From NCBI GenBank assembly GCA_010094025.1, contig ML991829.1, forward strand, positions 1 through 64,000: a stretch of 64,000 nucleotides of DNA, given 5' to 3'. Position 1 is the first letter of the stretch. Each line of letters begins with the position of its first letter. Positions 16,620 through 59,849 of this stretch are shown piece after piece. Source of the stretch: Viridothelium virens (taxonomy: Eukaryota > Ascomycota > Dothideomycetes > Trypetheliales > Trypetheliaceae). The notes under the pieces are model-generated. The model was not told the origin of the DNA. It ran no database searches and was given only the letters and a program-made list of their open reading frames with translations. The translations under genes were made by a program, and so were the position numbers.

Positions 16620-18413
16620 TCATGCTGTGCGATTGATATGTGTCTGTAGCGTTCTGACCTTGCTTTGCGTATGGAAGCCCGTCCTGAGCTCCGTATCTTG
16701 GAGAAGTTCGATTGCCTGTTTGATTTTCGCTTGCGACAAAACTTGCTTTGCCGCTACAATGCAATGATCAGCTGGAAACGTTGAAAGCACAGACCAATCG
16801 TACCTGGAAGCAGAGCTTGTGTTGCATGCACCAAAGCGGCATCCGAAAGACCTGATAACGCTATATCAATGACTGCGTGCGTATTCTCTTGAGTTACCTG
16901 CTGCTCATTAGCATTGCTTTCTCAGATAGCTTCGTCAGTGAGAACTATTTACCTTGAACAGGTCGTGGTCTAGATGCAACTTTGGTGGATGCTCGTGCGG
17001 TCTATGCAAGAGCAGTAACATCTTGGCCACATGGTAGGTCTGCATTGCGATCGCTGCACGGACTTTCAATTAGTGGGGTATTCTGATATAGACTCTAGGA
17101 ATGATGAAAGAGCTCTTCCGTACCTGCAGCGTCACTTGGAAACCAATAGCGAAAACTAGTCTCAGGCTCCGATATGCAACAAGTCATGGCGGTGAAATCG
17201 ATCGTCCTATTATCGTACCAGTGATCAATCTCACTGTTAATAAAGTTCCACCTTCTTGGGAAAGATTGCTGCCTGTTGGGGTCATGATCGCCATGGACAA
17301 GACATAAAACTTTAGCAAGAAGCCTCAGCATCTCGTTGCCAAGCAAATCCTCTGATTTCTCAGCAAAGTCCTGGGACAAATCGAGCACAGGCCAAATATC
17401 CGGATCCATAAGTGTCGGAGACTCATTGCAGAGAGCAGCACCCACGTCGTGTCGGGCGTAAATCCAAAATGAAGCCAGCAATAGACCAGATTGAGCCTTG
17501 TGAGCCGAGAATGATTCTATAAGCGACCTTGTCCCTTGGAAGTGCCGCACATAATCTTTCCCGGGGCAAGCGAGCAACTCATAACTGGCGAGAAGCACAG
17601 AGGTTGCTAATGTCACATCGACCTGAGCCTTTGACTGACCGAGAGCGTTCCGGAGAAGGCTCAAGCTTTGACCATAATGAGCTTCTGCAACAGTAGTCCA
17701 ATACGGCGACGTCTTAACGATGCTTAGCTGCTGGGCAGCTAAAGCGCAGACTGAGTGAAGAAGCAAGCGTGATTTGGGGACGAGTCTTGTAAGTTCGCGC
17801 TGGTAGGTGGCATTACAATCAAAAAGGTCCAACCAAATCCCGATTCCATTTTGGTAAGCTTGCAATAAGTCGATCGTCTCCACACTTATTTTGAGATCTC
17901 CTAAGCTTGTCTCGTTTGATACTGAGATCGAAGTTGTATCATCTTCACGAAATTCCGCGCCAGACTCAAAGTGTCTATTCACGACTTCCGAACTGTTCTG
18001 GGAGTCTAAAGCAATCCTCGTTTGAGGCTCAAAGGAAGCTGGTGTGCCATTGGTACTCTGCTCCCTGACAGACACGATGGATTGCGGAGTTGCCGCAGAG
18101 AATAATGGGGATTGACACCAGCTCGAAGGCACGATCAGTGCTGGAAACTGGCACACCAGACCGGACCTGCTGCAATTTTGGCACACAGGTCTCTGCTCAT
18201 CACATTTGGTATGGCGTTTTCGGCAGCCGAAACTGTTTGATCTCAACCAAAGAGTCGTGAAATTTCTGTATCGAAACCTTACCAACCTATAAATTACTGT
18301 TGGTTCGTTCTTGGGGATTGTTAGGGAAGCTGGGCCATACCTGTGCGCTTTCTGGCCCCTCTGCGACGAGTGGCACCCAGCGCTCCTCCAAGTGTTCCAC
18401 TTGTCGCAGCCAT
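16620..18413 (-). CDS. Zn2Cys6 transcription factor with a 4-nt microexon
   Basis: Six exons (minus): 18341-18413, 18283-18286, 17124-18232, 16954-17053 region (16953-17053), 16804-16900 and 16620-16753; about 505 residues with consistent phase throughout. The zinc cluster is C26-x2-C29-x6-C36-x6-C43-x2-C46-x6-C53, the canonical Zn2Cys6 spacing. The first Cys and the Gly before it are only formed if a 4-nt exon (GTTG) is spliced in. A middle homology region follows (about 140-400, typical of fungal-specific transcription factor domains), and the C-terminus reads AIAMQTYHVAKMLLLLHRP, a common end block of this family. Introns are 50-70 nt. The frame visible without splicing would end at 17095, missing about 110 residues. 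It lies between the P450 and aldo-keto reductase genes, so it may regulate them (inference). Confidence 0.85.
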
Positions 18414-19709
18414 TTGGAGCTTTTTAAAGTATGTGGCGCAACGGCCCGCAGGGTTCAGTCTGGTGAAGTACGGACCGCATGCGGACTATGACGGATTGCG
18501 ACGGATTACTCCGTATTGGCTTAGAGTGTGGCCCAAATGTCGATTCATGAGTAAGATGTGCCCCACTAATCTCTACGAACCGATTGTACTCCGCCAAGCT
18601 TCGAGGATTGTACGCAAAGTCTTTGAAGCAAAGAATTGGCTTGCGATCTTTAACATGATTTCGCTGTGAGCCAGAAGCATGGTTCGTGAGGACGATCTTC
18701 ATACCTCTATTCCAAAGAATTCTCTTTCACTACCGGTCCCACTCAGCTCATCTTCGAATCCACCTCCCATTGCGAACTCGAGTAAGCTTATTGTTCATCT
18801 CGACCTTCCTTAGGCTTCCAGCTCCAGCTCCAGCTCCAGCTCCAGTCTTGCTCCGCCTTCGCTCTCTATCCCTCCTAATCGACTTATCCCCTCAACTCCA
18901 CCTCACGGTACTTACCGTCATCATACTCCCTGCGCGGCTTCTCCCGCGTTCGAGGCATATGCACGCCGTGATACGACGCGCAGTGATTCTGTTGCATCAT
19001 GGGTTGAAACTGCGCAGACCGCGGCTGCTGCTTCTCGAACCGCTAGAGTCCAGAACTGGAAGGGTAATTGGAGCAAATACCGGTAGCTTCGTGGAGGAAG
19101 AAGGCACGAACTACGATAAGATAAGTGCAATGCCCTGAGAACAAGTGATGTGAAGTAGGCGTGAGGACGATGTCGACTGTTTGTAAGATCAGTATGCTCG
19201 TAAAGAGGACAGTGGTGACTTGTCGAGTTGATTATCAATATTCTGGTCCAAGACCGAGAATTATGGACGATCTTAAGGGGTGCTCGAGCGACGAAATAAG
19301 AAAATACAAAGTCTTCAAACTATGCTCTTTGCCTCGATGGCCACGGTACAAGGTTTACATGGGATGCGACGGACGCCAGTAGCAAGTCACAGCGGACATA
19401 CCTTACGGATTTAACCTAAACACGAGTCCGCAGTTGAAGCTTCACATTTTTCATCCGTCCCTAAAATCCGAGCTTTCATAAGGATAAATGATCGATCCCG
19501 CTGTTGGTGACTCTCAATTGAACAGCCTCCGCTGTGTTTCCTTCCCTCCCTTTCTGTAAATCCTGGATTTCCCGTTGAAATCGTACTCTCTAGAGATACA
19601 TTCATACGAAAAAAGTGTCCGCACGTTGGTACGGGAAAATTGGTGGGGGTTGCCCGAACACTTTTCTGTTAGTGCTGTAGTACTAACCGAAGCAAGAACA
19701 AACATCATC
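18414..19709. other. Region with unresolved coding-like segments on both strands
   Basis: On the plus strand an ATG at 18679 opens a natural-looking frame (MVREDDLHTSIPKNSLSLPV...) closed by one TAG at 18811. The same frame then continues to 19086 with protein-like composition. On the minus strand a segment around 18905-19045 reads MMQQNHCASYHGVHMPRTRE and ends at a strong GTAAGT donor near 18910. A possible acceptor follows, leading to a short acidic C-terminus. Neither gives a complete gene. The rest holds the Zn2Cys6 promoter (left) and aldo-keto reductase promoter (right). A (CAGCTC)n tract lies inside. Confidence 0.4.
18816..18845. repeat. (CCAGCT)n hexanucleotide tract
   Basis: About five tandem copies of a CCAGCT-type hexamer, each containing a potential CAG acceptor on the plus strand. 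In the plus frame starting at 18814 it encodes a Ser run; on the minus strand it encodes alternating Leu-Glu. Confidence 0.8.
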
Positions 19710-20873
19710 ATGGCCGCGCAGAAAATTGCCTACAATAATCTTGGCCGCTCAGGTCTCAAAATATCCAAGGTGATCTTGGGTACTATGTCCTATGGCGCCT
19801 CAAGCTGGCAAGATTGGGTACTAGACGAAAAAGAATCGCTTCCGTTGCTCAAGCACGCTTACGACGTTGGTATTAACACCTGGGACACCGCAGATGTCTA
19901 CTCGAACGGGGTAAGCGAGCAGCTTGTGGGCAAAGCATTGAAAGAATATAACATACCCCGCGAAAAAGTCGTCATCCTGTCAAAATGCTATTTCGGCGTC
20001 GCCCAAGATGGCAAACAGCTCTCAATCTCCGAAGTCTCGACCAACGACAATGACTGGGTCAACCAGGTCGGACTAAGTCGGAAGCATATTATGGATGCTG
20101 TAGACAATAGCGTTCGCCGACTCGGTACCTACATTGACGTCCTCCAAATCCATCGGCTGGATCGCAGTACACCGCGCGAGGAGATCATGAAAGCGTTGAA
20201 TGACGTTGTCGAGTCGGGCAAAGTACGGTGAGTCGCGTCCTATATCTCCAAGACCAAGCGATCCACGAAAAATTGGACGCTGACCTGCGCGTAAAGCTAT
20301 ATTGGTGCATCGTCAATGTACGCGTGGGAATTCCAGACCCTCCAGAATATCGCCGAGAGACACGGGTGGCATAAGTTCATATCGATGCAGAATTTCTACA
20401 ACCTCATCTATCGCGAGGAGGAGCGCGAGATGATCCCATACTGCAAAGACACCGGCGTAGCGCTGATTCCGTGGTCGCCCGTCGCGAGAGGTAGACTGAC
20501 TCGGCCTTGGGGTCAACGAGACACGACACGTGAGAATACTGGTAAGCTACATACCTCCGGGGTCATCCCATTGGCACGAAGATGGATCTAATGCCTTCAT
20601 CCAGACTGGTTCCTGCGTATGATGAAAACACGCGAGAACGAAGTCGACCAGGCGATCGTGGATCGGGTGGAAGAGGTCGCGAAGAAGAATGGTATCTCAA
20701 TGACAGGTGTGGCGACTGCGTGGTGTATCTCGAAAGGCACGAACCCGATCATTGGCCTGTCGAGTAAGGAGCGCATTGATCAGGCGGTGGAAAATAGCAA
20801 GATCACGCTGAGTAATGAAGATATCGAGTACCTCGAGGAACCGTACTTGCCCAAGCAAATCCAAGGACACTAG
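19710..20873 (+). CDS. Aldo-keto reductase (potassium-channel beta/YakC-like branch)
   Basis: NADPH-dependent reduction of aldehydes or ketones; the substrate is unknown. Exons are 19710-20227, 20297-20541 and 20605-20873, giving about 343 residues. The first intron (GTGAGT...AAAG) joins SGKVR to YIGASSM, and the second (GTAAGC...TCCAG) joins ENT to DWFLRM. The catalytic tetrad can be placed at D59, Y64 (WDTADVYSNG), K92 (LSKCY) and H148 (LQIHRLD). The N-terminal block YNNLGRSGLKISKVILGTMSYG and the C-terminal IIGLSSKERIDQAVEN cofactor block fit AKRs close to yeast YPR127W/Ypl088w-type alcohol dehydrogenases. The ATG follows CATCATC and is the start expected for the family. A GTAAGC after ENT and a second in-frame continuation make the second intron certain. 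Confidence 0.92.
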
Positions 20874-23637: not shown

Positions 23638-25191
23638 TCAGGCCGGGGGCAGGAAGCATGAAAATAAACCAGCGTGTATGATCGCGTACATCACCATGCC
23701 TCGCACAATGATCTGAGATTGCGATCCAGAGGGCCTTTTTGCGGATGGATTAGTCCTCCTTTGGGTCGGCACGAATACCGAATGGTCTTCTACTAATTGA
23801 GAGGCGACCCAAAGGTACCAAAGTGGGTAGCCTGAAGAAAGGCGGTTGATGATTTGGACATGAAAATATGTCAGAGCCAAGACTGAGACGAGCAACTGAG
23901 GTAGAGCAAGTCGAAGTAGGATATTTTTGCGCGGAGCTTTCGTATTGGATGACACAGATCTTGAGTCGGATTTCTGACTCATGACGATATCCTCATTATG
24001 TGTATTGGATCGTGTATGCCTGTAATCAGCGGGTCTCGCCACCGATGTCAATATCTCGAGCGCAGAGACAATCAAAAAATAGAGCATAGGGCTGCTCAGG
24101 ATAAAAAGTGGTATATTGGATATTTTCCAATACTTCAAAAAGCCCGTACCCCTTTAGAAGCGTCAGCATGCCGTTTGGCGACTCAAGCGTTGCATCATAC
24201 CAATAATGTTTTTGGACCCACGTGTAAATGCTCGGTGTAAAGCTACCGTTACACCATGTCCTTGGGTAGCTGCTATGTGGACTGCTCCTGCAGATCTCAA
24301 AGAATGCGATGGCTTGCGGCCCAACGAAGCCGGCGGCGAGGAGAATTCCCGCTGCTCCGAGGGAAATGAACCTTCGCCATATAGGAAAGGACGTTATGTC
24401 CTGTACAAGCTCGCAGGATTCATGTATAAACTCAAAGGCAACCATCAAGCCATTGAAAAGACCATTGCTGCGCACAGTTGTGGCCAGGCCAAATAGCGTC
24501 CCGGCAACCAAAATAAACAAGTCCTGCGAAAATTTCCGCTGATCCTGAGCATTGCATGTGCTGTGAAGGAACAGCCATGTCCCGGCAAAGCTTAAGAAGC
24601 TGAATAACGATTCTGAGAATGGGGCCGAAAGGAAAAGGCCGGCCGGTGAGACGATATGTAGGACCGCAGCAACAAAAGCCGTCTTTTTGTCTACGCTTAG
24701 TGGATGCAATTTTTGGACAAGTGAATGTAGGACAAGCACGGAAGCGAAATGGGATAGATGAGAGATGACAATCCCGGCCCAGACATGAGCCTCGACCGTG
24801 GTACACGAGGAGGAACACGCTACCACACTTCGTTAGCGCATCAGCTTTTCGGTTTCTGACCAGCGGGATGACGTGAAGGAGCACCTTTGGCGATTAGCGA
24901 AAGTAATCTCGTGAAGCCCCAGCCAAACGCCCACTCTTGTTCGTAGACGTAACCACGTTCAGATATTTTGGCATAAAAAATGCCATCCCATCGAGTAAGT
25001 CGCATGAGGAGCGGAGAGAATGAGCCGCCGACATCCGGTCCGAGAGCATCACGCGCCAGAAGGAGGGTAGAGGAGGTATCGTATCCGAAGCCAGGACTGA
25101 TGCGGGCAACGGCCATCAACAAGGCCTTCCACAAAACAAAACAGATCGTGAGGGACGCGATTGGCCGTCGTGCTGGCGTAAAATCGGTCAT
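23638..25191 (-). CDS. gpi18: GPI mannosyltransferase 2 (Gpi18/PIG-V)
   Basis: Adds the second mannose to the GPI anchor precursor in the ER membrane. Exons are 24861-25191, 24201-24819 and 23638-24151, giving about 487 residues. The first intron uses donor GTCAGA and branch CGCTAAC; the second uses GTATGA. The second join yields QKHYWGTGFLKYWKISNIP, matching the conserved HYW-x-GFLKYW region of PIG-V proteins. The lumenal LTRWDGIFYAKISERGYVYEQEWAFGWGF block near residues 63-92 contains the conserved Asp of GT-C enzymes. Multiple membrane helices follow (about 8-10). The apparent upstream start at 25200 is TTG; the first ATG is 25191 (MTDFTPARR). The hydrophilic segment near SVARPADYRHTRSNTHNED is a loop that could hide an in-frame intron, but the frame is open. 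Confidence 0.9.
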
Positions 25192-26177
25192 GTTAGTCAA
25201 GCTGACTGATAGCCTCAGGCTGTTCTTTTTAGCTGGTCAGAAGCAACGTGGTTGTTGGTACGGTAGGTACAAGACGTGCAAAACGTGACCCAACCGAATC
25301 TCACCTCATCAAAAGATGAAAAGGCGCACGAGTTGAGATATTGTTGGCGACGTTGGAGGTGGCGCATGCCAATAGTCATCCACGAGCCGTGGCTAGGGTA
25401 TTCACACGGTCAAGGCGCCAGTCAGAGCTGCTGGAGTAGTCGACTGTGAAAGGTGTTGTCGAACAGGGGAACGACGCTCGCTATGGGTTAGCTAGGCGAA
25501 GAGAGCATTCAGCTGCACGAGGGACCTCTCACACCTAGATGCGTCGTGTGAGCCCCGTGAAGAGCTGTACAAGGATTGGGACACGGCGGACTATCTGATT
25601 CGTCGGGTCGCGTGTTTCGGCGGTCGGGATGACGCTCGAGCCGGCAGATTTAGATTGATCAACGGCGCTGGCTGCGGGCTGGCGGGCTGCGGAACGCGAT
25701 TCTTTCTCCGTTCGAAGAGTCCTACGGATCCCCGTGTTGTTCGTTCGCAGCGTTGCACCTTTGAAGGCTGCCTTGGGGGCCGTACAAAGAACATGTCGTG
25801 CCCACGACTAGTAGACTTCGACTCTCTTTTGTACCCGTCTGCTATTTACCCCCAAACTCCCTGCTCTCTCTCCTCTGTGCCCCTCTTTGAAACAGACTCT
25901 CGCCCCAACTGCGAGACTTGCTTTTCCTCTCATTTACGACAGGCTGTGTTTGACCGTGCCAGGCGAAAGCATTCCTTCCATCCAGACTTGATATGTGTTC
26001 AGAGTTTCCCTGACTCCCATCTCTGCTGCTACCCCCTCAGCGCCGATAGCCCCGCTTTGAGTAACCACATAAAGTGCTGTTTGGGAGACCCGATTGAAGT
26101 TTGACATCTTTTCTTGATCACGGATTTCATTGCTCCAAGCCAATACGACATCTGACGGAAAACCATTGGCGAAGCGG
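25192..26177. other. Divergent promoter region, gpi18 and the 594-residue gene
   Basis: Nearly 1 kb. A plus frame (25655-26104) is Cys-rich with no motif and is likely chance in a long leader. Pyrimidine-rich sequence at 25800-25930 probably belongs to the leader of the plus-strand gene. Confidence 0.55.
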
Positions 26178-27959
26178 ATGACCGCTACCTTGCCATGTAC
26201 TTGTTCCATGACCACCTTCCTTAGGTTTCAGCAAACACCAGTGCTTTTGCTAGACAAGAGCACAATGCGATCGGAGAACTTTAAGGGCACAACTGTTCAA
26301 AAAACTGTTGAGTTGACGATGGACGATCAGGGTAGTCCGCTTTATGAAGTGCCACCTATCTTAAGACAAGCAAGCAGTGAAGCTTTCAGAAAGGAAAGGA
26401 CAAAACGGCCAAAGACTACGTATAGTCTCGCGCACCCGCCCCCTGGCGGGAAAATACCGCTACGCCCCAAGGTTCTTTTGCAATTACAAAAAGTTGCACC
26501 TAACACACGGTCTGTGCCGGCATTTGAGGTGCTCTCTGTGGCGGCGTTTACTTTCAAAACTGGTCGAGCTATCAAGTCTCTGTGGTCTGGAAAAAGTCGT
26601 ATCCGGCCCGAAGATCTCGTGGTATTGCAAGGCCAAGACTACTCGAACAACGGATCCGCCCCAACGGAGCCAAAGAGAGGTAGCTCAAGACATGTGGTTG
26701 GCGTTATTTGCAGACGGAAAGGGGCAGGCAAGGGAGCAACCTCACGGACGGAAATATGTCTTGAAGATGGATCTGTGTGGGATGCAACCGCCATGTCCAA
26801 TGGAGGCTATGAGTTCAATTCTCAACAGGAGCATGGCCTGACGTCCAGTGCTCGATGGGTCCGCAGACATCCCGCTAAACCAATTGAGAAATCACCGACA
26901 CCCAATATTGGTGTCCCGGAACAAAAAGTCGAAGACCGGTCATTCATGTTCACAAAGATCACGCCCAACATGCGTCAGCATCCTATCGTCGGATGCATGA
27001 ATCGCACGAAACTTGAAGTCTACGATCAGTACAGTGTCCCAAGTGCATCAAACACAGATCGTATCCCCGGGACCACACGCCCTAAACGACTCGCGCGCCA
27101 AAAGAGCTCGAGCTCATTCTCCATCCTGGAAGGTGGTGAAGGGGTCGTGCCTGTCACAACGGAGAGCTCTTTACGTGATCTGATTCTTGTCAGTGGAATT
27201 TTGGTCGCCTTTCGAGAAGGATGGTCAAGCATGGTCAAATTCGAAGAAGAGCGTGATCATTGCTCGCGCCCCTCGTCACCACCGCATACACGAACTCACC
27301 GTCGATGTCCGTCAGATCAAACGCTCTCTACATCAAGCGAAAGTGGTGCTCCTCAAGCTCCACCAAATGATACGGGAGTTAAAAATGGCGTCAAGAGAAG
27401 GCTAATGCGAACTGGATCAAAGATTTGGAATCGCTCTTCGAGTTCTGGAGTGCCAGGCCCAAACACTCCTACCAAGGATACGACTCCATTACCTCCTCCC
27501 CCGAGTTCGACTTCCACAGGCGTAGCTTTTATCAGAAAAGTTAATCGCAGCGACCCGAACGGGATTACCCCAGCATCCAACCCTCACATCTCCAATTCAT
27601 TCCATTCGTCCCAAATCGGGTTAGGCATCGAAGGAAATGAGGCCATCGCCTCGCCCGCGTTTTATGCTATCCTTCCTCAATCGGCCTCTGAAAACCCGCG
27701 CTCCATATCTTCTGAATATGAGACCCGTCTCGAAGCACCCAACGAGGATATCGAGGATGCGGCGAATGATAATTCGAATCTGAACGAAGACGCTACTTGT
27801 GGACCGCAAACGGGACAAGAAGTCGAAAATGACGACGGTTTGGTGTCAAGTACTGAGACAAGTACCGCGAGGAAAGAGCCGGAATCGGAGACCAGTTATC
27901 TGTACAAACCCTTGAAAGACATACTTAATGCATTTAAGAAAAGTAGTGGACTCGCATGA
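26178..27959 (+). CDS. Uncharacterised disordered protein, possibly conserved in Pezizomycotina
   Basis: One long frame; about 593 residues from the ATG at 26178, or 564 from the Met at 26265 (MRSENFKG). The start is uncertain, and an acceptor-like CCTTAG just before 26226 allows an upstream exon. The N-terminal third looks folded and basic (KTTYSLAHPPPGGKIPLRPKVLLQLQ, then SVPAFEVLSVAAFTFKTGRAIKSLW). Next comes a segment with regular strands around RHVVGVICRRKGAGKGA and SLRDLILVSGILVAFREGWS. The C-terminal half is Ser/Pro/Thr-rich and disordered, with a short terminal helix (SYLYKPLKDILNAFKKS). I do not recognise the family. It is followed in tandem by the GBD/FH3 gene, 415 bp downstream. 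Confidence 0.75.
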   Translation: MTATLPCTCSMTTFLRFQQTPVLLLDKSTMRSENFKGTTVQKTVELTMDDQGSPLYEVPPILRQASSEAFRKERTKRPKTTYSLAHPPPGGKIPLRPKVLLQLQKVAPNTRSVPAFEVLSVAAFTFKTGRAIKSLWSGKSRIRPEDLVVLQGQDYSNNGSAPTEPKRGSSRHVVGVICRRKGAGKGATSRTEICLEDGSVWDATAMSNGGYEFNSQQEHGLTSSARWVRRHPAKPIEKSPTPNIGVPEQKVEDRSFMFTKITPNMRQHPIVGCMNRTKLEVYDQYSVPSASNTDRIPGTTRPKRLARQKSSSSFSILEGGEGVVPVTTESSLRDLILVSGILVAFREGWSSMVKFEEERDHCSRPSSPPHTRTHRRCPSDQTLSTSSESGAPQAPPNDTGVKNGVKRRLMRTGSKIWNRSSSSGVPGPNTPTKDTTPLPPPPSSTSTGVAFIRKVNRSDPNGITPASNPHISNSFHSSQIGLGIEGNEAIASPAFYAILPQSASENPRSISSEYETRLEAPNEDIEDAANDNSNLNEDATCGPQTGQEVENDDGLVSSTETSTARKEPESETSYLYKPLKDILNAFKKSSGLA

Positions 27960-28374
27960 TGTCCACATTTAGCGATGTATAACTAGCGCAGAGAATCAAT
28001 CAATAAGATACCAGCAAAACTTTTCACAATAGCAGCACTTACTATGAGAAGACTTCTCCCCTGTGAATCCAGCACTTCGGTACGTATTCCGCGTTTAGCC
28101 TTTCTCAATGACCTTAAGATGTTATCGATGCCAAGAAGATCCGCTATTGGTAAGTCCACATCCATGTCCATGTCTATGGCGGATGTCGCGCAAGGGTCCA
28201 GTGCGTTGCCCCGCAACCCTAGTACCACAACAATCGCGGGACCGAAAGTGGCGGGGAGCATGCCACGTCAAGTTACAGGCATCGTACAGAAACAAGAATA
28301 TCTCCTCAAGAATGTTTTATCCGCCAAGCACTATCTTCAAAGCATGAATTAAGAAAAACAGAGACTTTGACAAC
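27960..28374 (+). other. Spacer with a 102-codon open frame of doubtful status
   Basis: Between two tandem genes lies an ATG-started frame at 28044-28352 (MRRLLPCESSTSVRIPRLAF...). It contains a Ser-Met repeat and a GTAAGT donor-like site near 28150. It could be a small gene, an upstream ORF or a 5' exon of the next gene, but no evidence decides. Confidence 0.3.
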
Positions 28375-31059
28375 ATGGAATATCCTGCCGCGCAGGAACG
28401 GCCCCCCCACCGGAGGGCTAAATCTTCGGTTTTGAAGTCAATCATGGTCACCAGAAGCCACAAAAAGACCCCATCCGAAGGTGCAATCGATCCACCGCCC
28501 ATAAACAGCTCGATCGAGACGGACCCGGTTTATTCACGAGATATCATCTCTTCTACGTCGAATCCCGAACCTGTCCACAACCCCTTAGGTGAAATCCAAC
28601 CAAATGCAAACAGACACGCTCCTTCACCGAAGAAAGAGAAAGGATACAAGAGCTCAAAATCTCCCCACAAGTCGAAGAGCTCGATGTCAGTCAAAGGTTT
28701 ATTTGACGGTTCCCACGGACCGGAAGGTGGTCGGAAATCATCCGAGCGAAGTCGCAAGAAAGAAAATGCCTCCCCAGAAAAGCCAAAGAAGTCGAAGTCG
28801 TCCACGAGTCTGTCTTCCGTGTTCATGAAAGCAAATAAATCGTCAAAAGGTTCACAGAATGCCTGGCGGGGTAAAGAGAAGGAAAATACGACACCACCAA
28901 CATCTGCCGTCTCCGATGCCCAGACTCCTATCTGGGCCCAGTTTGCTAAGGGAGGGCTTGAAGATTGTAGCAGCACTTTATTTTCTCCACCAAAGTCTCA
29001 CGATGCGGCTTTGGAATTGAAGTCGCCATATTCTCCCATAGATTATACAACTGCAGAGCAAGGCCATAGCAAAGGCCACAGTGAGCAAACTCCACGGCAG
29101 CTCCGTGTGGAGTCGGCACAGGTGAATCCAGGCTTTGGAACAAAAATTCCTGATGAACAGAGAGGTGAAAGGAGAGCTCGAAGCCATTCGCGTCCAGATT
29201 GCGAGAAACGAAATTCCCGGGTCATGGCAGCGATTGCCGCCCTCACTGGAAATGGCAAGATTCTGGAGGCTGACACGAGTGATGCAAGCTTCAAGATCCA
29301 AGGGAAAGAGCTTGATGCCGCTTTTGAGGCTGTACTCAATGAACGCAACGTCCCTGAAAATATGAGGACAGGAATGAGAGGTTTGACGGCCAGAGTGAAG
29401 ATAGATTTCATCATGAATAGTCGTCAAGCACCACCGGGAGCAGTAGAAAACAGGGCAATCAAGTCAGAAGAAAAAACCAGCAACAGAAGAGGTCGGTCCA
29501 AAGCTCCAACGTCAGCAGGCTCGGACGGCTCCAAGACGGAAGTGCGAACATCAGAAGCGCAGGAGAACTCAGCCGCAGGCACGAATAAGCATCAGAGGTC
29601 ACGAAGCAAGACGTTCATGTTTAACAAGGATTCCCTTTCCCCAACGAAGAAGCGAAAGGATTCACAAGAAATCGACTCCTCGCAGCTTGAGTCTGTGAGC
29701 ATGCATAAGTCTTCATCGTCCAAGTCTCTGGCTTCGATGGGGAGTCAGAGCAACGGGTATACATCTATTGACCGCAAAACACCAAAGTCACCGGAGCCGG
29801 AAGAGTTTGTGAGCTATCTGCGCAAGGTCCAAAGACCAGAGGTTGTAGAAGTTGGAAAGCTACATAAATTGCGCCTGCTACTACGAAACGAGACGGTAAG
29901 TTGGGTGGATAACTTCATACAGCAAGGTGGGATGGCAGAGATTACTGGATTGCTACACCGAATCATACAAGTGGAGTGGAGAGAAGAACATGAGGATCAA
30001 CTTCTCCATGAAGTGTTGCTTTGCTTGAAGGGCCTTTGCACAACTGATCTGGCGTTAAGGAAACTTTGCGAAATACAGAGCACTCTTTTCCCCGCTCTTT
30101 TAAAGATGATCTTTGATGAGGAAAAGAAAGGCCCGAGCGAGTTCACGACGAGGGGAATAGTGATCAATTTGCTTTGTAAGTTTACACATGCATCAATCAG
30201 ATATGCAGATTGGATGATGTTCTTTGGATGCAACACTAACTCGCCCTCAGTCACGCATCTAGCTGCTGCGATTCCAGCAGGGATCGAAGAACGAACGAGT
30301 ACAATACTCTCGTACCTTCGTGATCCTCAACCCTCTGAAGATAGTCGACCGTTGAACTTCATAATGGAGATGCATCAATCACGGCCATACCGCGTATGGT
30401 GCAAGGAGATTGTCAGTGTCACCAAAGAGGTGTTCTGGATTTTTTTGCACCATCATAATGTCATCCCATTGGGCCAATGCTCCCCTGAGGGAGACACAAC
30501 GAAGCAGCCTTACGACATGGGGGAGGAAAAGAAAATCGGAGAGCCATCCAAGGGAGGAACCTACATGTCGAAACATTTCCCGAAGGCTCGGGCACCCGTA
30601 CCAGCCGCTCCCTACATCGGTGGTGTGGAGTGGGATGCAACCAACTACATCGCCGCGCACCTAGATCTTATGAATGGTCTCATTGCATCCCTTCCTACAG
30701 TTCAGGATCGGAACGAGCTGCGCAGTGAGCTGCGGGCTTCGGGCTTTGAAAAGTGCATGGGCCTTTCGCTTCGTACGTGTAAAGAGAAGTTCTACGGGGC
30801 CGTGCATGACTGCTTGAGGACATGGATTACGGCGGCGGCAGAGGATGGATGGGCGATCGAAGATGTGAGATTTGGTCCCAAGAAGGAAGACGTGAGTCCT
30901 AAGAAGAGTCCGGCAAAGAGCAGAGGGAGTCCTTTGAAGAAGGACCAAGGCTTAGACGCGCTCAAGCTGGACGTGGGAACGCCAAAGCTAGAGCTCGGAT
31001 TAGGTCTTGATGGTGCAGGAGTTCACAACCTGGCCGATGACGGGTTGGGATGGTTATGA
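28375..31059 (+). CDS. Stand-alone GBD/FH3 (formin regulatory domain) protein
   Basis: About 869 residues after removing a 75-nt in-frame intron (30176-30250; GTAAGT, branch CACTAAC, CCTCAG). The join VINLLFTHLAAAIP fits the FH3 armadillo helices, while the unspliced reading inserts 25 odd residues. The N-terminal 270 residues are basic, Ser/Lys-rich and disordered. Around 275-345 is a conserved helical region (RVMAAIAALTGNGKIL, then LDAAFEAVLNERNVPENMRTGMRGL), which looks like the Rho-GTPase-binding part. From about 475 the FH3-like armadillo region runs (PEEFVSYLRKVQRPEVVEVGKLHKLRLLLRNETVSWVDNFIQQGG). The C-terminus ends with Lys/Pro-rich sequence. There is no FH1 proline tract and no FH2 domain, so it cannot nucleate actin itself. 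It may be a Rho effector or scaffold. Confidence 0.85.
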   Translation: MEYPAAQERPPHRRAKSSVLKSIMVTRSHKKTPSEGAIDPPPINSSIETDPVYSRDIISSTSNPEPVHNPLGEIQPNANRHAPSPKKEKGYKSSKSPHKSKSSMSVKGLFDGSHGPEGGRKSSERSRKKENASPEKPKKSKSSTSLSSVFMKANKSSKGSQNAWRGKEKENTTPPTSAVSDAQTPIWAQFAKGGLEDCSSTLFSPPKSHDAALELKSPYSPIDYTTAEQGHSKGHSEQTPRQLRVESAQVNPGFGTKIPDEQRGERRARSHSRPDCEKRNSRVMAAIAALTGNGKILEADTSDASFKIQGKELDAAFEAVLNERNVPENMRTGMRGLTARVKIDFIMNSRQAPPGAVENRAIKSEEKTSNRRGRSKAPTSAGSDGSKTEVRTSEAQENSAAGTNKHQRSRSKTFMFNKDSLSPTKKRKDSQEIDSSQLESVSMHKSSSSKSLASMGSQSNGYTSIDRKTPKSPEPEEFVSYLRKVQRPEVVEVGKLHKLRLLLRNETVSWVDNFIQQGGMAEITGLLHRIIQVEWREEHEDQLLHEVLLCLKGLCTTDLALRKLCEIQSTLFPALLKMIFDEEKKGPSEFTTRGIVINLLCKFTHASIRYADWMMFFGCNTNSPSVTHLAAAIPAGIEERTSTILSYLRDPQPSEDSRPLNFIMEMHQSRPYRVWCKEIVSVTKEVFWIFLHHHNVIPLGQCSPEGDTTKQPYDMGEEKKIGEPSKGGTYMSKHFPKARAPVPAAPYIGGVEWDATNYIAAHLDLMNGLIASLPTVQDRNELRSELRASGFEKCMGLSLRTCKEKFYGAVHDCLRTWITAAAEDGWAIEDVRFGPKKEDVSPKKSPAKSRGSPLKKDQGLDALKLDVGTPKLELGLGLDGAGVHNLADDGLGWL

Positions 31060-35241: not shown

Positions 35242-36323
35242 GATCGATACGATATCGCGGAAAGTTACGGAGGGTAAGTTTGAAAGATAGAGAAGGAGAA
35301 GGAGTAGGCTGGACGTTAAGAAGGATTTACTCAGATTGAAGTTTGCCACCTTGTAGGCTTCTGCCCAAGACAGAGACGGCGCCCACAATAGTGAAAATCA
35401 GAATGCCAAGGAAAGCCTAAAAGAAGCATTACATTACGAGGAATCTTAGACAAAATCTTAGACAAAAAGGCAATAATGCCGCCCTGCTGAACCTTCAAAG
35501 AAGAGGGTTTGGCGAGATATACCTAAAGTGCTTGTATTGGGTAGGAATCCCTAGCCTAGCGGATGCAAAGTTGGCAGAAAATTTGGCCGCACTGACTCCT
35601 GCCTCGGGCGTTTCTCAGGACTATTAAACAGACCACTACAGACATATACCTTTGTTCAGATTGTTGACTAGTTGATGGCAGGAAACTGTACTAGCGTTAG
35701 AGATAGGCATATGGACGGTAAATTTCGACTTGTGCTATATGATTTTTTGTACCCTACGGTATTTCTCTATTGGAGATCTATATACTTGAGCTCCTCCCTC
35801 TGATTCGGTCCTGTTTCCCTACAAAGCGTGAAGGAAAGAGCAGTAGAACAAAATGCCAGAGGATATGTGTATAGGAAAAAATTGGGTTGAACGACCAGTT
35901 GATGTCTGGGCAAAGACCTCCAAGCGCAGGAGAAAATCATTACATGGTTCCCAGAGCTCTTCGACCAACCACGCACCATCGCCGAACACGCACAACGATG
36001 AGCTTGTCTAGAGGAGGGAGGATCGAACCGAAACAGCGGCGCTACCGGAAACGAAATAAAACTGGAGGAAGGCAGCAGCCCATCCGTTCTCTCCCGGGCT
36101 TGCAAATTTGTGAATAGAAACATATGATGTAATGTGAAGGAGAGCGCTCACTTTGCCGAACCATCCTCAGCCTCCCCAATGTTAAATAACCCGGAAATCG
36201 ACATATGGAAAAATACCCCGAGGACAGAGTTGGTATCGTAACAACGCCAATGCCATGCTCGCTGGAATATTTTCGATCATAAGGCCATCCATGGACAAAA
36301 AAAAAAAAAAAAGAGATTTCGAC
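35242..36323. other. Intergenic region between the Mdp1-like and fusion transporter genes
   Basis: 1.08 kb with no supported gene. Frames at 35767-36123 and 35887-36117 are motif-free. An A16 run lies at 36297-36312, next to the end of the fusion gene. Confidence 0.6.
36297..36312 (+). repeat. A16 homopolymer
   Basis: Second 16-nt A run of the window (T run in the sense of the adjacent minus-strand gene), 12 bp beyond its stop codon. Confidence 0.9.
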
Positions 36324-39134
36324 TTAGCCGTCTCTTCTGACCGGCCTCCCCTCGATGTGTTCCACCATATTCCTCTCTCCACCATCACTCCCGCTCTTCC
36401 AACTGCACCTCTTTATCTTATCACTCCACCGTTTCACCTTCTTGTCAGATGCACGGCAGTAATCTTCAAAACTGGAAATTGCACTATGTCCTTCATTATG
36501 CCGTGTATGTCGTCCTAGGACGCGCTCTTCCTTAGAGTGATCAACTTGTCGACGCGCTCTCCCATCCCCATTGATCCAAAGCGGGAGTAGCACGCCCGCT
36601 GCAAAAGCAGCAACGACGATGCAGAAGGAATACTGCGCGCCCCGACTCTTCGACACCGCATACATGATCGGCGGGAACACCGCACCTCCAGAGATCGCTG
36701 CAGTCAAGAGCGCGGACGCATCTTTGGTGCGAGCACCCATACCTCGCAGACCGGTGGTGAAGATGAGGGAGAACAGAGGCCCTTCGAAGAGATACACGAT
36801 AATGATCAGTGCGGCAGGAGTAGCGCCGGAGAAATTCATACACAACGCTGTGAAGAGGACAGCACCAGCGTAGCAGAAAAGTAATATCCAGCGCGGCTTC
36901 ATGAAGAAACCCGCGAACGCAGCGAGGAATCGACCGACGGCGAAGGCCGTGTGACCGATGGCTTGGTGGTTGATGGTATTTAGGCTAGGGTTAACTTGGC
37001 TCATGTACGACGAGAAGGAGGTGCTGACGGATTCCTGGCCACCGACGTAGCAGAATTGGGAGAAGACGGCAAGCGCGAAAGTGATGTATAGGACCTTGAC
37101 TGTCAAGGGGGATGACCCGGGTCGCCAAAGCTCGAAGGTGGCATCGTTTGCATAGTCTGACCGTTCCGCGATATCAGCGAGTTCGGCATCGGTAGCCTCG
37201 GGAAGTGGGAGATAGTGGTAAGCGAACGCAAGAAGAGCCATGAATAGAGCGATGCTGAGGTATGTCCACTGTACGTCGATCAAAGAAGGCGCATTGAAGA
37301 CGTTGCGGAAAAGGACCTTGTTTGCCAGCAGAGGCGCAAAGATGGTGCCAGTGGCTTGCACCCCTTGCGAGAAATTGAGTCTGATTTCTCCATATTGCTG
37401 TGGGCCACAGAGCGCAATGAAGGGATTAGCAGCAATTTCTAAGGTGGATAGACCAAGTCCGACGATGAAGTTCGACACAAGAAAGGCGGGAAATGATGTG
37501 AGGACTGAAGCCGGCCAGAAAACCAGTGTCCCAATTGCGTAGATGACAAGTCCAACAGTGTAACAGGCTTTGAAACCCCAGTATCTCAAGACAAGGCGAC
37601 CAAAGGTCAGTGGAGCAACTAGGTAACCAGCGTAATAAGCACTATGGAGGCCGACTGTCATGCCCGGCGACATTCTAGCCACCAGTTGGAACTGAGAGTT
37701 CAAGACGTCTAAGAGACCATAGGCAAACCCCCAAATCAAGAAGAGGAAGGTGACCATAAGTACAGGGAACAGAGATTCTTTGTTCGTCATATACACCATG
37801 CTCTTCTTACGCTTCATGTTCACAAAATCAAAGAAATTCGGGGTGGCCGGTGCTGTATACCCGGTTGTATTCGTCATCGCGGTTTCACTTCTCTGAAAGT
37901 GGTGGACTTCGGGAAGCTCAGTCATATCAGGCGTCGTCAAGAAGTCCATTATGGCCACAGGCTCATCACTTTGCGAAGCAGTCGCATTTGGCGGAGTCCT
38001 TCTCGCCTGGATAGATGGAGTCGACACTGAAGGAATGCGTTGGGAAGCCGTGAAGTCTAAGGCTTCTATCCCAGTAGTTGTTGAGCTCTTCCTGGATGTT
38101 TCCCCGGGATCCCGTAATAAATGTGGCAGGAATCTGGAGACCAGAGGTTTCAAGCCCGGCACGCAACCGCACATGATTCCTAGGTTTACTTCCACGGCCG
38201 ACCACATGTAAGAAAGAGAGGCATACCACGAAAAATCATCTTCTTCGGAGTTGCGTGAGGATGATTGGTGCTGCGTAACTTCTGTAAAGCGGGAGAGCGC
38301 TGCATTCTCCAAGTACGCAATGCGGACAACATCGATGGCAGCGACAAAGATACCGAAGCCAAATGTAACGATGAGGATGATCTTTTGCTTCTTAGGTAGC
38401 TGCATTGCGGTCAAGATTGGCATTGGCAGGAACAGAATGGCCAAATCCGTGCTGATATTTACTGGGGACGAAGACAGATACACTCCTATAATGTCTACGC
38501 AATGTGCTGAGGAGGGAGGCGCTGCATCAAAAGCAGCACCGACTGGTCGACATTGGAAAACATTTAAAAACGTGAGGGCAATGCCGGCGAGGTTCACCAC
38601 GAGGAGCGTACCAATCGTGAACCACCGAAAGACCTTTTGAACCTTTGAGAGTGAAAGGTAAAAGACCAAGATTGACGTCTTTGTGGCCATCAACGCGGGA
38701 TTCTAAAAGCATGTGAGCCTACGATGATGAAACGACAATGCGACAAAACACTAACATAGATTACAGAAAAGGCATATTCCGACTTCTGTAGTGGTCGTCG
38801 CGAGGACTCCGGCACATCGATTTCATGCTTCCCCAGGCCTACAGAAGTTCCATAGCAGATGGAGAAGGAAAGTCCAAAGGCAAGGATCTGAAGACCCAGA
38901 ATTAGTAAACAATTCTGTTGACCACCAGGAAGTTCGCTTTGCTTCTTCCACACAACGTACCCACGCCAGAACCATAAAATAGTCATCCCAAGATACTCGA
39001 TGAACAATTCCAATACGCGAGACCATCCGCAGAGACACGAAGACGAAGGAGCAGGCAACCATCGCCGTCGTGACCGCGAGTACAACATCAGTCCGCGACG
39101 CGACTGGACCGGAGTCCAGTGGTCCTCCAGCCAT
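36324..39134 (-). CDS. Fusion of a PTH11-type 7TM rhodopsin domain with a FucP-like MFS transporter
   Basis: Exons are 38961-39134, 38756-38887 and 36324-38702, giving about 894 residues. Introns at 38888-38960 and 38703-38755 have good signals, and the joins read VLAWILAFGLSF and VIYNPALMATKTS, both typical of fungal rhodopsin-domain (PTH11-like) proteins. Seven helices can be followed to about residue 280, including SWDDYFMVLAW, NVFQCRPV, LPMPIL and the YMWSAVEVNLGIMCGC block. The usual cytosolic tail follows, with FFDFVNMKRKKSM. Without any stop, a second 12-helix unit then begins (ESLFPVLMVTFLFLIWGFAYGLLDVLN). It carries the FucP-family LEIAANPFIALCGP and RLNFSQGVQATG signatures. The C-terminus is long and charged. 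The arrangement suggests one polypeptide coupling sensing to sugar transport, but two genes read together cannot be fully excluded. Confidence 0.85.
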
Positions 39135-40055: not shown

Positions 40056-40950
40056 TCAAAACAAGCCAAAGATGCCAAGGACAATGGCCAAAGCGCTTCC
40101 AGCTGGAACCACCAGAGCATCAGCAGCGGCACTTGAAGATGTCATAGCAGTACCAGAGGCTGAGCTGGAAGCGCTTGAAGAGCCGCTGGAGCCAGCGCTA
40201 GTCGCTGTGGCGGACGTAGAGCCAGACGAGGTAGAGTTGCCAGTAGCTGACGCCGCATGGGTAGAAGTCGAGGCAAACCTAACAATTTTCAAGTCAGAAT
40301 TTCTTGCTTTCCATAACTCGTGACCATCCTCTTCCAATCTGCTCGACGCAGACAAAGATGTGTGGAAACATGCGATTGTTGATGGCTGAGATTACTTACT
40401 GGCTTGCAGCTTGGCAGTACTGCTGCACCTGCTGCTGGACCTGCATGATCTGTAAGCAAAGAGCATCGATCGTGCATGAACCGCAAAACTCACCGAAACG
40501 CCTGCCTGGTCACCTGGGCAGTTGTTGTAGCATCTGTAGATCCATGTCAGACCTCATCTAAAAATTACACACGCGCCTGGGATGAGGCGTAGAGGACAAG
40601 GCGGTGGAGTACGTACGTCTGAAGGTTCTGGGCGTTTGTGCACCTGGCATCATCATTAGCAAGAGTCTCGGAGCTTTGGCCAAGGTATACTCAACGTACA
40701 AGCAGCTCCAGTCGTTTCCGGCACACGCGTTCAGTCGTGGCTGGAACTGGCTAACGCAAACGTCGAGAGTGCTGGGATATGTTAGCAAAGAGGGCCCCAG
40801 AGGCTCAGCGAGACTCAAAATGCAAGCCACGCATGGATGTACGTACGTCTGAGCCGCACACGAAGAGGATCCAGAAGACGCGCTCGAGGTCGTGGTCTGA
40901 GCGGCGGCGAAGCCAGCAGTAGCAAGGATCAGAGCGGTTGAGAAATGCAT
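40056..40950 (-). CDS. Small GPI-anchored Ser/Thr-rich protein with CFEM-like 8-cysteine domain
   Basis: Six exons: 40847-40950, 40700-40771, 40617-40643, 40494-40533, 40400-40449, 40056-40278; 171 residues. Signal peptide 1-17 (MHFSTALILATAGFAAA). Cysteines fall at 31, 40, 51, 58, 60, 69, 73 and 93. The order C-x10-C-x3-D-x2-C-x-C, then C-x3-C and a final Cys, is close to the CFEM pattern, though the first gap (8) and last gap (19) are longer than the published consensus. A Ser/Thr/Ala stretch (about 98-150) and a C-terminal hydrophobic tail (VVPAGSALAIVLGIFGLF) indicate GPI anchoring to the plasma membrane or wall. Exon 3 is only 27 nt. CFEM proteins bind haem or serve in wall stability and host interaction; which applies here is unknown. 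Confidence 0.85.
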
Positions 40951-42029
40951 TTTGATTAAGATGTGTATGATAAACAGCTTGCTTGGAAACGGGTAGAAAT
41001 TCTGTATAGGTAGAATGCTTTGCTTAAGATCAAGAATTCGGTGAATGAAAAGTCCCAGAACGAGTGATGGGCGCTTGATAAAGGATGGATGTTTGGATGT
41101 TGGGCAAAAAGGAGAATTTTAAGGGAGGCGCCATATATATGAGGCAGGCGAACCCCAGATTGAGCCCAGACCCTGCTTCTCGATCTGGCGGAGCGAAACA
41201 TGAGCTAGACCTGCTTAGAGTAAAGCGTCATGAACATCGTGTTTTTGAATCCCTTCATTGGCTTTTGCTGCACTGTGCTACCCAGCTCCGGTATGGTCTC
41301 CCGATCAAGGCGGAGACTTCTTACGGTTCCCCCCTCCATAACCCGTTCGTGCCGTGACCTGCAGAATGTATAAGCCCGACGCGCGTCTTGGTTGGAGAGG
41401 GATGGGAGCAATGATAATTCTGTTCGGCGGTCTACGGGTTGCAATGCCTCATTTGCCGCTTGTTTATCTTTTGGGAAACTTTGAGTTGGGTGCGCTGGCG
41501 TGGCTGGGCCGGAGCGTTTTCATTGTTGAGACACGTTGATCGACTGATACTCCGTAATGTGAGAATGAATCGTGCATCTTCAGAGTGATTACCTAGTTGT
41601 TTGTTTCGGCTGTAAGAATTCGGCTCCAATAGAACAATGAAAACATGAACAGAGCTCCCTGCTGACCATCCCCAGATAGAGCTCAGCATTGGAGCACCCT
41701 CCTAATGTTCCGACGCTGATCTCTGCTTTTTCCAATAGTCACATCCGACACGCCCAATAAGTGACCCGCAAGCTGTCGTCAACCGCAAGCACTTCCCGAT
41801 TGCATGCCACACTCGAGACTCTGCAAGTTGTTGGAAATGAGAACATTCTTGGCCAGTGCGACTACTGCTGGACTCGATTCTGTTGCTCGCATCCCTATGT
41901 ATTCATGCCAAGTGTATGTAATACAGCAAGTGAAAGCGCCATTTACCGTAGAAACCTTCGCCTGCCGCCCACTGATCCCACTTAGCCCTGTGCCGACTTG
42001 GACCGTTGATTGGTTCAGTCGCTTATCGT
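40951..42029. other. Intergenic region, promoter of the CFEM-like gene and Rsp5 3' flank
   Basis: 1.08 kb without a supported gene. The plus frames at 41085-41357 and 41761-42127 have no motif and atypical composition. Confidence 0.6.
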
Positions 42030-44955
<2,926 letters not shown>

Positions 44956-57638: not shown

Positions 57639-59849
57639 CTATAATTTATATGCTCCACCAGTCTTCGTTTGCTGCCCTTTGACTCGGTTACCCTCAACAT
57701 CAACAATGTCTCCCTTCTTCCCAATCACTTTCACGCCTCCTCGCTTCAAATCTCCAAGTACTGCCTTCTTTTCTCTTGTCTTCTCGCTTTCCTTCACCTC
57801 CTCCTGTGCACCAGCTTTCCTTGTTCTTTCCTTCTTTCTTCTTCGCCTTCGAGTCTTCTCTTCTCTGCTCATCTCCTCCCTACTGACTGGCATCCCGCCC
57901 TTTGTTGCCACAACATCATCTCCCACATGAGCCTCCCCTGCTGCGTACACCTCTTGAGGAGCCAACATGCTTGCACCGCCGACGTCGCCTCCGACCGCCG
58001 GTTGAGCATCTTCCATCATAACCGTCGGCATATCGACTCGGACTTCCAGATTTGGAGCTGCTGGTTTCGGTTTATAGTGCCAATTGGTCAGCGCATCCAG
58101 CCTTGCGCTAACGTCCTTCCACAATGATTCAATCTCCTGATGTTCCTTCTTCAACTTTTCATCCCTCGCATCTACATAATCTGGATCTGTGCGGCGCAAA
58201 TGCTCTTGCTCATACTCCTCTGCCAGCCCCTGAACCGGTTTCGTGTCGTCAAGCTCGACTCGTTGTCGGCCTCGCCGAGCATCAGGGCCGGTAACCAGAT
58301 CATCAGGACGGCGGCGAATGACCTCGTCGAAATCTTGGGCGAGGATGCGGCGCTTGATGAGGGCCTCGATATCCTCGCTGACCTCCTGGGTGATCACAGG
58401 GACCGGTTTGCCGGCCCGCTCGAAGTCTAGGTCTTCTTCCAGAAGGGAGTTTATTGGACGATCGGCTGCCCGGGCTTCACCAGAGAGTGTCCACTCGCGT
58501 TTAGCAACGTTTGCAGCTTCGAGTCGACGTATTTCCTCGGCAATCTTTGCTTGGCGGCGCTCGTGATTAGAGCGCCGAGATTTTGGGTCACCTGGATCAG
58601 CGTCGCTGAGAAGATCTTCGGACTCGTTCTCAGAAAGTGCGTCATCGAAGAGATCATGGTGGACAGACGACATCGTGCGCTCTACTTCGTCTTCCTGCCC
58701 ATCAAGTCTCTGTTGATCTTTTTGCGTATCTTTCTCTGGGAAGTTATGTGGATTCGGTCGACCGCGTTTCTTTTTACTGGCTTTGCGCGCTGGTGGGGCG
58801 AAGAAGTCGGCGTATAAGATGTCATTTGTGTTTCCCATTGCTCCCACGTCTTGACTGTCCTCTTCCAAGAAAGCCATTTCCTCATCCTCATCCTGATCAC
58901 TAGATCCGGCTGAATCACCAAAGGTTGGACCCTCGTCATCATCGTCACTATTTTCATCCTCGTTGTCGCGTGTGTTGCCATGCACTTTGGCAATGTCGGC
59001 ATTTCCGAAAAGTGGATTAGTGCTCCAATCGATATCCTCTTCATCACTTGCTGCTCCATCGTTCGGATCACCTCGTACGTCTTGTTGCTCCAGGAACTCG
59101 GAGTTCCTATTGAAGTCGTCGATTGAAAAGAACCCATCATTGAGTCCGTTAAGGTCAGCAACAAAGGTGCTAGAATCTCCATTCGCGACTTCACTACCGT
59201 CACTAAGATCGTCGTGGTCGATGCGCTCGAGGTCATCTAGACCCTCAGACGACCTTTCATTGTCTGGCGTGTCCCTGTGCAAACGCTGCACCTCGTTTCC
59301 ATCTTCCAACTCTTCGCCCACACTTATATCGTCACCGTCATATTCCCAATCAACACCCTCTTCTCCTAGACTGCTTTCATCTGAAGAATTAGCTTCTGAA
59401 GGGTTATCTTCAAAACGCACAAGCTTAGTGCCACCAGTAGTCGACTTTTGCTCCTTCCTTTCGGCGCCAGTGTCCAGATTGCCATTCTCAAGGGACTGAG
59501 TTGTTGCTTCAAGCTCAGGTATCGCTCTTGCTAGCTCATGCCTTGTAGCGCTTAAAATTTTTTTCGCCTGTTCGAAAACCTGGTCTATCCCAAACCCTTC
59601 GACGTGGATTTGTTTAAGCTGTAATGGCCTTGAAACATTTCCCTCTTCTCCGCGTTTACGTTTTCTACGCGACTCCTGGTACTCAAATTGCTGCTTTGCG
59701 CTTACGTTCGATGCGACAGGATCCAAGTATCGTTTGGTTAGAACAAGCGCTGCATTATGTAAATCGTTTGTGGGTTGTAGGAAGTCATGGGGTGACTGCG
59801 CGAGCACTTCGAGCAAGTTTGAAGGCCCATGATTATTTTGAAGTATCAT
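57639..59849 (-). CDS. mpp10: U3 snoRNP protein Mpp10
   Basis: Component of the small-subunit processome needed for 18S rRNA maturation in the nucleolus. A single exon of about 736 residues from the ATG at 59849 (MILQNNHGPSNLLEVLAQ). The N-terminal helical block DFLQPTNDLHNAALVLTKRYLDPVA is typical. It is followed by a basic KRKR region, QIHVEGFGIDQVFEQ, and several long Asp/Glu-rich tracts between 180 and 390. Then come FFAPPARKASKKKRGRPN and the C-terminal Mpp10 core (LEAANVAKREWTLSGEARAADRPINSLLEEDLDFERAGKPVP, then EEYEQEHLRRTDPDY). The protein ends in a basic tail finishing KGQQTKTGGAYKL. The frame extends to 59927, but its first codon is TTG. An upstream mini-exon cannot be excluded. Confidence 0.94.
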   Translation of the reverse strand: MILQNNHGPSNLLEVLAQSPHDFLQPTNDLHNAALVLTKRYLDPVASNVSAKQQFEYQESRRKRKRGEEGNVSRPLQLKQIHVEGFGIDQVFEQAKKILSATRHELARAIPELEATTQSLENGNLDTGAERKEQKSTTGGTKLVRFEDNPSEANSSDESSLGEEGVDWEYDGDDISVGEELEDGNEVQRLHRDTPDNERSSEGLDDLERIDHDDLSDGSEVANGDSSTFVADLNGLNDGFFSIDDFNRNSEFLEQQDVRGDPNDGAASDEEDIDWSTNPLFGNADIAKVHGNTRDNEDENSDDDDEGPTFGDSAGSSDQDEDEEMAFLEEDSQDVGAMGNTNDILYADFFAPPARKASKKKRGRPNPHNFPEKDTQKDQQRLDGQEDEVERTMSSVHHDLFDDALSENESEDLLSDADPGDPKSRRSNHERRQAKIAEEIRRLEAANVAKREWTLSGEARAADRPINSLLEEDLDFERAGKPVPVITQEVSEDIEALIKRRILAQDFDEVIRRRPDDLVTGPDARRGRQRVELDDTKPVQGLAEEYEQEHLRRTDPDYVDARDEKLKKEHQEIESLWKDVSARLDALTNWHYKPKPAAPNLEVRVDMPTVMMEDAQPAVGGDVGGASMLAPQEVYAAGEAHVGDDVVATKGGMPVSREEMSREEKTRRRRRKKERTRKAGAQEEVKESEKTREKKAVLGDLKRGGVKVIGKKGDIVDVEGNRVKGQQTKTGGAYKL

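Follow-up and report, generated by a model that had tools for sequence, protein, structure and literature searches.

Does a single gene join a receptor to a sugar transporter in one membrane protein, or do two products share a reading frame by circumstance or by error? The question is raised by a locus at positions 36324-39134 (minus strand) of a Viridothelium virens contig window, where a PTH11-type seven-transmembrane (7TM) receptor domain is followed in the same frame by a twelve-helix transporter unit. The window, that is, the whole stretch of DNA analysed here, comprises bases 1-64000 (64,000 nucleotides) of contig C59 in a 175-contig, 30.7-Mb assembly. A reading of this sequence alone had proposed a receptor-transporter fusion at the same coordinates, which our analysis reproduces, and a fusion is also the most likely reading of the results described below. 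A receptor-transporter fusion could link nutrient sensing to nutrient uptake, and its importance would rise if the arrangement proved conserved.

Gene structure and the two domains

The gene model consists of three exons on the minus strand. Exon 1 (38961-39134) starts with the ATG at 39134 and encodes residues 1-58, which comprise the N-terminus, TM1 and the start of TM2; it is followed by the donor GTACGT. Intron 1 (38888-38960; 73 nt, phase 0, GTACGT...CTTCAG) includes a branch-like CTAAT, and exon 2 (38756-38887; residues 59-102) covers receptor TM2 up to the loop preceding TM3. Beyond intron 2 (38703-38755; 53 nt, phase 0, GTTAGT...TTTTAG), exon 3 (36324-38702) contains TM3-TM7, the linker, the transporter and the C-terminal tail. 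It counts 792 codons plus the stop codon (36326-36324), the same 793 codons free of internal stops that had been read earlier. The spliced frame is uninterrupted over 894 codons, and the 894-residue product has a calculated mass of 98.1 kDa, so that the earlier figure of about 97 kDa was roughly right. Just past the stop, the plus strand has a run of 16 A (36297-36312), which is a T run on the strand of the gene.

Many combinations of splice sites leave the frame open, and the combination given here was chosen because it uses consensus splice sites and completes the receptor domain. Removal of intron 1 yields the full-length Fung_rhodopsin match, and with the two short introns spliced out the match extends over profile positions 1-237 of 237, as the sequence-only reading had anticipated. 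A scan of the whole gene for introns gave four candidates. The scan relied on a table of 20 donor hexamers that was drawn up after both accepted introns were known, and their top rank in it is therefore not independent. The candidate at 38226-38180 was rejected as it would cut TM7, and that at 38611-38543 as it lies inside the receptor core. Receptor paralogues in the same genome support the second intron, since the matching stretch starts at residues 96-99 in 5 of 17 loci, close to the start of exon 3 at residue 103. Several other paralogue loci match straight across the intron 2 site, and this intron is thus not universal in the family.

The receptor domain is complete. Residues 35-292 match the Pfam family Fung_rhodopsin (PF20684) along the entire profile with 204.7 bits (cut-off 27, E = 2.1e-60), the portion of the domain encoded in exon 3 occupying 38142-38702 (residues 103-289), and simple hydropathy places seven hydrophobic peaks ahead of the linker. 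The N-terminus ahead of the first peak has only 16 residues and is thus too short to hold the CFEM domain found at this end of some Pth11-like receptors, which is reported for 3 of 11 such receptors in D. coniospora (PMC4859500).

The second domain is likewise complete. It is a FucP-type (FHS) 12-TM major facilitator unit at 36570-37784 (residues 409-813), with twelve hydrophobic peaks after the linker and a significant MFS_1 match in Pfam at residues 419-752. In a phmmer search of PDB, residues 411-792 align with positions 23-411 of the 438 residues of E. coli FucP (3o7q, E = 7.6e-34); apart from this entry and the FucP entry 3o7p (E = 1.4e-33), no distinct PDB sequence was found at E ≤ 0.1. 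The best NCBIfam model is TIGR00885 (fucP), and the score of 136.2 bits is well below its equivalog cut-off of 280.4, so the transporter half is FucP-related rather than FucP proper; a true FucP orthologue with L-fucose specificity was rejected on the same ground. In the alignment FucP Asp46, Glu135 and Gln159 fall on identical residues, Asp46 corresponding to Asp434 and Glu135 to Glu524. These two carboxylates, which we take to be central to proton and sugar transport, are kept, whereas Asn43, Asn162 and Thr275 differ, and L-fucose therefore cannot be assumed as the substrate. The chain ends in a basic tail (36327-36569; residues 814-894; codon score 0.071, see below) that is predicted to be cytosolic.

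Hydropathy thus counts 19 peaks in the chain, seven before the linker and twelve after it, in line with the approximately 19 membrane helices estimated before. The distribution of charges agrees with an N-terminus on the outside: with this orientation the short inside loops contain 18 Lys+Arg in 116 residues, compared with 13 in 211 for the outside loops. A further 13 Lys+Arg are found in the linker and 20 in the C-terminal tail (the last 82 residues), a distribution that favours a cytosolic linker in accordance with the positive-inside rule. Because the C-terminus of a 7TM receptor and the N-terminus of an MFS transporter both face the cytosol, a linker on that side would join the two halves without flipping either.

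Coding signal across the linker

Whether the two domains belong to one product depends on the 119-residue segment between them (37785-38141; residues 290-408). This linker is rich in Ser, Thr and Pro, which together make up 34% of its residues compared to 20% in the whole protein, and it is predicted to be cytosolic. It contains no in-frame stop, and both other forward frames carry stops. A pair of genes divided by a stop codon was accordingly rejected, as was an overlooked consensus intron within the linker, since none of the four candidates from the scan starts or ends inside it.

The coding character of the linker was assessed with a codon score trained on 33 long open frames (13,760 codons) from the window and the loci examined. 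The linker as a whole scores 0.081, a value that 142 of 230 coding windows do not exceed and that only 3 of 117 off-frame open windows reach. For comparison, the transporter scores 0.095 (2 of 117 off-frame windows) and the receptor part of exon 3 scores 0.052 (10 of 117), the latter count showing that the score is of limited power even for the receptor itself. The two halves of the linker behave differently. The second half has a score of 0.144, reached by 0 of 117 off-frame windows, while 26 of 117 score at least as high as the first half, which has 0.016; these counts are rough, because half-linkers of 59 and 60 codons were set against windows as long as 119 codons, and because the table had been trained on the sequences of the off-frame windows. 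In sliding windows over approximately 38150-37971 another forward frame attains 0.19 to 0.29 against -0.06 to 0.08 for the coding frame, and one antisense frame (with one stop), taken over the complete linker, scores 0.076 against 0.079 for the coding frame. The linker overall behaves as coding sequence; its first half is ambiguous, and codon use does not secure it. With this qualification, the frame, the profiles, the predicted topology and the codon statistics of the whole linker all bear out the single open frame with two complete domains that had been described at this locus.

The weak signal in the first half of the linker, together with the higher score of another frame there, would fit a joint that is erroneous or arose by accident very recently, whether because a stop codon was lost or misread, through a small indel, or because the assembly merged two neighbours on the same strand. 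We regard this explanation as unlikely. A DNA search with the 301 bases spanning the joint found a single place in the assembly, the linker extends over 119 stop-free codons whose second half is coding-like, and a chance join should be uncommon: when the 357-nt linker was subjected to 2000 dinucleotide shuffles, only 12 of the resulting sequences were stop-free in one frame, and this is before the same strand and the same frame are required.

A different alternative accepts the shared frame and questions how it is used. An in-frame ATG within the linker (Met354, 37947-37949, minus strand) lies in a good start context, CCATAATGG, so that a transporter-only product may arise from this codon besides, or even instead of, the fusion. 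According to this alternative the fusion may exist, and the working transporter would come mainly from an internal promoter and Met354, with the receptor little used or produced from a shorter alternative transcript. The stronger coding signal in the second half of the linker and the ambiguity of the first fit such a start, as do two FucP-type paralogues elsewhere in the genome (on C32 and C33), which have only a few tens of residues in frame ahead of their first transporter helix. Against it, the receptor has no in-frame stop of its own ahead of the transporter and the linker offers no intron candidate that could make one; lacking an ending of its own, the receptor is most simply understood as part of a fusion. 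On balance we consider a predominantly internal start unlikely, and translation of the full frame into a single product remains the reading that we prefer.

The stretch ending FFDFVNMKRKKSM had been taken for the cytosolic tail of the receptor itself. This assignment could not be confirmed. A search with the linker by itself gave no further match anywhere in the same genome, and the stretch may equally be the N-terminus of the transporter.

Relatives in the genome and comparable proteins

If one chain serves both functions here, it is of interest whether related genes in the same genome are built in the same way. Further matches to the transporter half were limited to the near full-length ones on C32 and C33 and a fragmentary one on C52, the last in one search only. 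No receptor was found near these loci at E ≤ 1 in the 7.5, 7.5 and 5.5 kb read around C32, C33 and C52, respectively, in a search that recovered a receptor locus on C28 as a control. Conversely, none of the 17 receptor paralogue loci had a match to the transporter half better than E = 0.48 in its surroundings. A fusion that is general in this genome was therefore rejected, and since the remaining FucP-type loci lack a receptor in their vicinity, a transporter of this type evidently needs none. The C52 locus (24261-27470) matches the transporter only in separated pieces corresponding to its first ~80 and last ~70 residues, and looks partial or decayed. Among prokaryotic contigs, 17 stretches matched the search pattern and 0 encoded a relative of the transporter half; the viral contigs contained 0 such stretches.

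The receptor half, by comparison, belongs to an abundant family. At least 158 Fung_rhodopsin stretches, counted exon by exon, are present in the 30.7 Mb of this genome (224 candidates, 150 scored). The longest receptor-carrying open frame among the matches listed is that of the fusion gene (792 aa), followed, as judged by eye, by one of 539 aa on C39. To our knowledge, PTH11-type receptors are a very large class in filamentous ascomycetes, and nearly all of them are without known ligands.

The abundance of the family permits a variant of the fusion reading, overlapping with the one that we favour, in which the halves do not communicate: a copy from such a large family could easily have been captured, the receptor would serve only in targeting or for stability, and the function would be transport alone, which the conserved FucP carboxylates are consistent with. 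The match to the whole receptor profile at 204.7 bits speaks against this variant in that it suggests a receptor fold that is still maintained in the fusion, and we hold a mute receptor to be a minority possibility, rather less probable than a receptor in use.

The receptor half resembles PTH11-type receptors (PF20684) in its whole-profile match, its seven helices and its large family in the genome, and differs from them in continuing into a twelve-helix transporter. The transporter half resembles the FHS family, and E. coli FucP in particular, in matching along nearly all of FucP and in keeping the two carboxylates; it is distinguished by the added N-terminal 7TM receptor and by its position below the FucP equivalog cut-off. 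FHS proteins move sugars together with protons, domains of the FucP type occur widely among fungi, and RhtA of A. niger, which imports L-rhamnose, is according to its authors the first validated eukaryotic member (PMC5161314). Our likening of the transporter half to RhtA follows the family description.

As an analogy, animal LYCHOS/GPR155 comes closest: it sets a precedent for a hybrid of transporter and receptor, with the two modules in the opposite order. It is described as a chain of 17 helices in which a PIN-like 10-helix transporter is followed by a 7TM domain and a DEP domain, acts in cholesterol sensing, and is reported to be absent outside holozoans (PMC12716839). Both proteins unite the fold of a transporter with that of a 7TM receptor in one chain, that of LYCHOS serving nutrient sensing, whereas in the fusion the receptor comes first, the transporter is a twelve-helix MFS unit, and Pfam finds no DEP match. 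Because the order of the modules, the transporter family and the kingdom all differ, the fusion is not a member of the LYCHOS family.

The oomycete GPCR-bigrams (GPCR-PIPK, -AC, -PDE, -INPP and -TKL) have an N-terminal 7TM receptor and a C-terminal effector (PMC6033456, PMC5784254). The predicted fusion would be similar in placing a second domain behind an N-terminal 7TM receptor, its frame being continuous and its linker coding-like overall, and is dissimilar in its partner, a transporter, the accessory domains described in those texts being enzymes with no transporter type named. The bigram survey, as described there, was restricted to proteins with 5-9 helices and excluded transporters; a protein of 19 helices would thus have been missed. 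Transceptors such as CDT-1/CDT-2 of Neurospora combine transport and sensing in one protein (PMC12892961); in these, sensing is attributed to the fold of the transporter itself, whereas the fusion has a separate receptor domain attached.

For N. crassa, cellulose phenotypes are described in three Pth11-class mutants (PMC12892961). The transporter table of a Trichoderma cellulose study labels an MFS gene as a fucose permease, and the passages of that study that mention PTH11 receptors do so separately (PMC3998047). Receptor and transporter are on different genes in the relevant passages of PMC13116585, PMC4782317 and PMC5372324, fucose permeases are mentioned in PMC2330156 in a passage that names no receptor, and one legend in PMC4859500 names both domains without saying that they share a gene. 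No fungal PTH11-transporter or other receptor-transporter fusion appeared among the matches listed from open-licence PMC text. The architecture may already be present in protein databases, without comment.

A putative sensor-importer and its surroundings

These results lead us to propose that the gene, whose receptor family points to an ascomycete, probably encodes a PTH11-type receptor, a cytosolic linker and an FHS symporter in one chain, most likely a sensor physically linked to an importer. The N-terminal seven-helix receptor would have its N-terminus outside and its C-terminus inside the cell, the Ser/Thr/Pro-rich linker of about 120 residues would lie in the cytosol, and the C-terminal twelve-helix unit, with both ends inside, would act as a FucP-like sugar:proton symporter. 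On this model the receptor half would respond to a cue from outside, which may be the plant-derived sugar that the transporter takes up or a related one, and would signal via the cytosol, possibly through a G protein. The linker would couple receptor and transporter one-to-one at the fungal surface, presumably in the plasma membrane, and uptake and signalling would therefore take place at the same spot and could influence each other. Such mutual influence would resemble that of a transceptor, which achieves it within one domain. The built-in nutrient sensor suggested earlier is thus plausible, by analogy with the precedents described above.

Counting against a sensor tied to an importer are the ambiguous first half of the linker, the context of Met354, the FucP-type loci without a receptor, and the lack of a sugar-use cluster around the gene (see below). 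If the proposal is nonetheless true, it names a candidate ligand class for a PTH11-type receptor, which could be tested via the sugar of the transporter, and it adds a second, independent joining of a transporter and a 7TM domain in one chain to that of animal LYCHOS. A bolder extension, which we put forward tentatively and consider rather unlikely, is that there exists a fungal family of one-chain receptor-transporters whose halves regulate each other. These would be two-domain transceptors, independent of animal LYCHOS and with the modules reversed, and would report the arrival or flux of sugar via G-protein or tail-mediated signalling.

The neighbourhood was surveyed by comparing the 28 other long frames (≥ 170 aa) of the window with Pfam, a survey that short or strongly split genes could escape. 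None of these 28 frames stood out as a glycoside hydrolase or an enzyme of sugar use, in contrast to A. niger rhtA, which adjoins a rhamnosidase gene (PMC5161314). Downstream is an Acid_PPase gene (PF12689; 34420-35397, minus strand), and upstream lies a gene for a small Ser-rich, secreted-looking protein (approximately 40059-41118, minus strand) with a signal-like N-terminus; it has several cysteines and appears CFEM-like by eye, and has no Pfam match at E = 0.001. Other Pfam matches include an aldo/keto reductase (19560-20228), 18 kb from the fusion gene, a Zn2Cys6 regulator (17098-18423), an Nramp-type transporter (13259-14065), a carbonic anhydrase (1299-1967), a gene with a Diaphanous GTPase-binding domain (28348-31056), a protein with three WW domains (43200-44432) and Mpp10 (57642-59933). 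Two frames at 14797-16457 jointly cover most of the cytochrome P450 profile (PF00067), and consecutive plus-strand frames at 7406-10878 carry the CDC24 calponin, RhoGEF, PH and PB1 domains of an intron-split Cdc24-type exchange factor.
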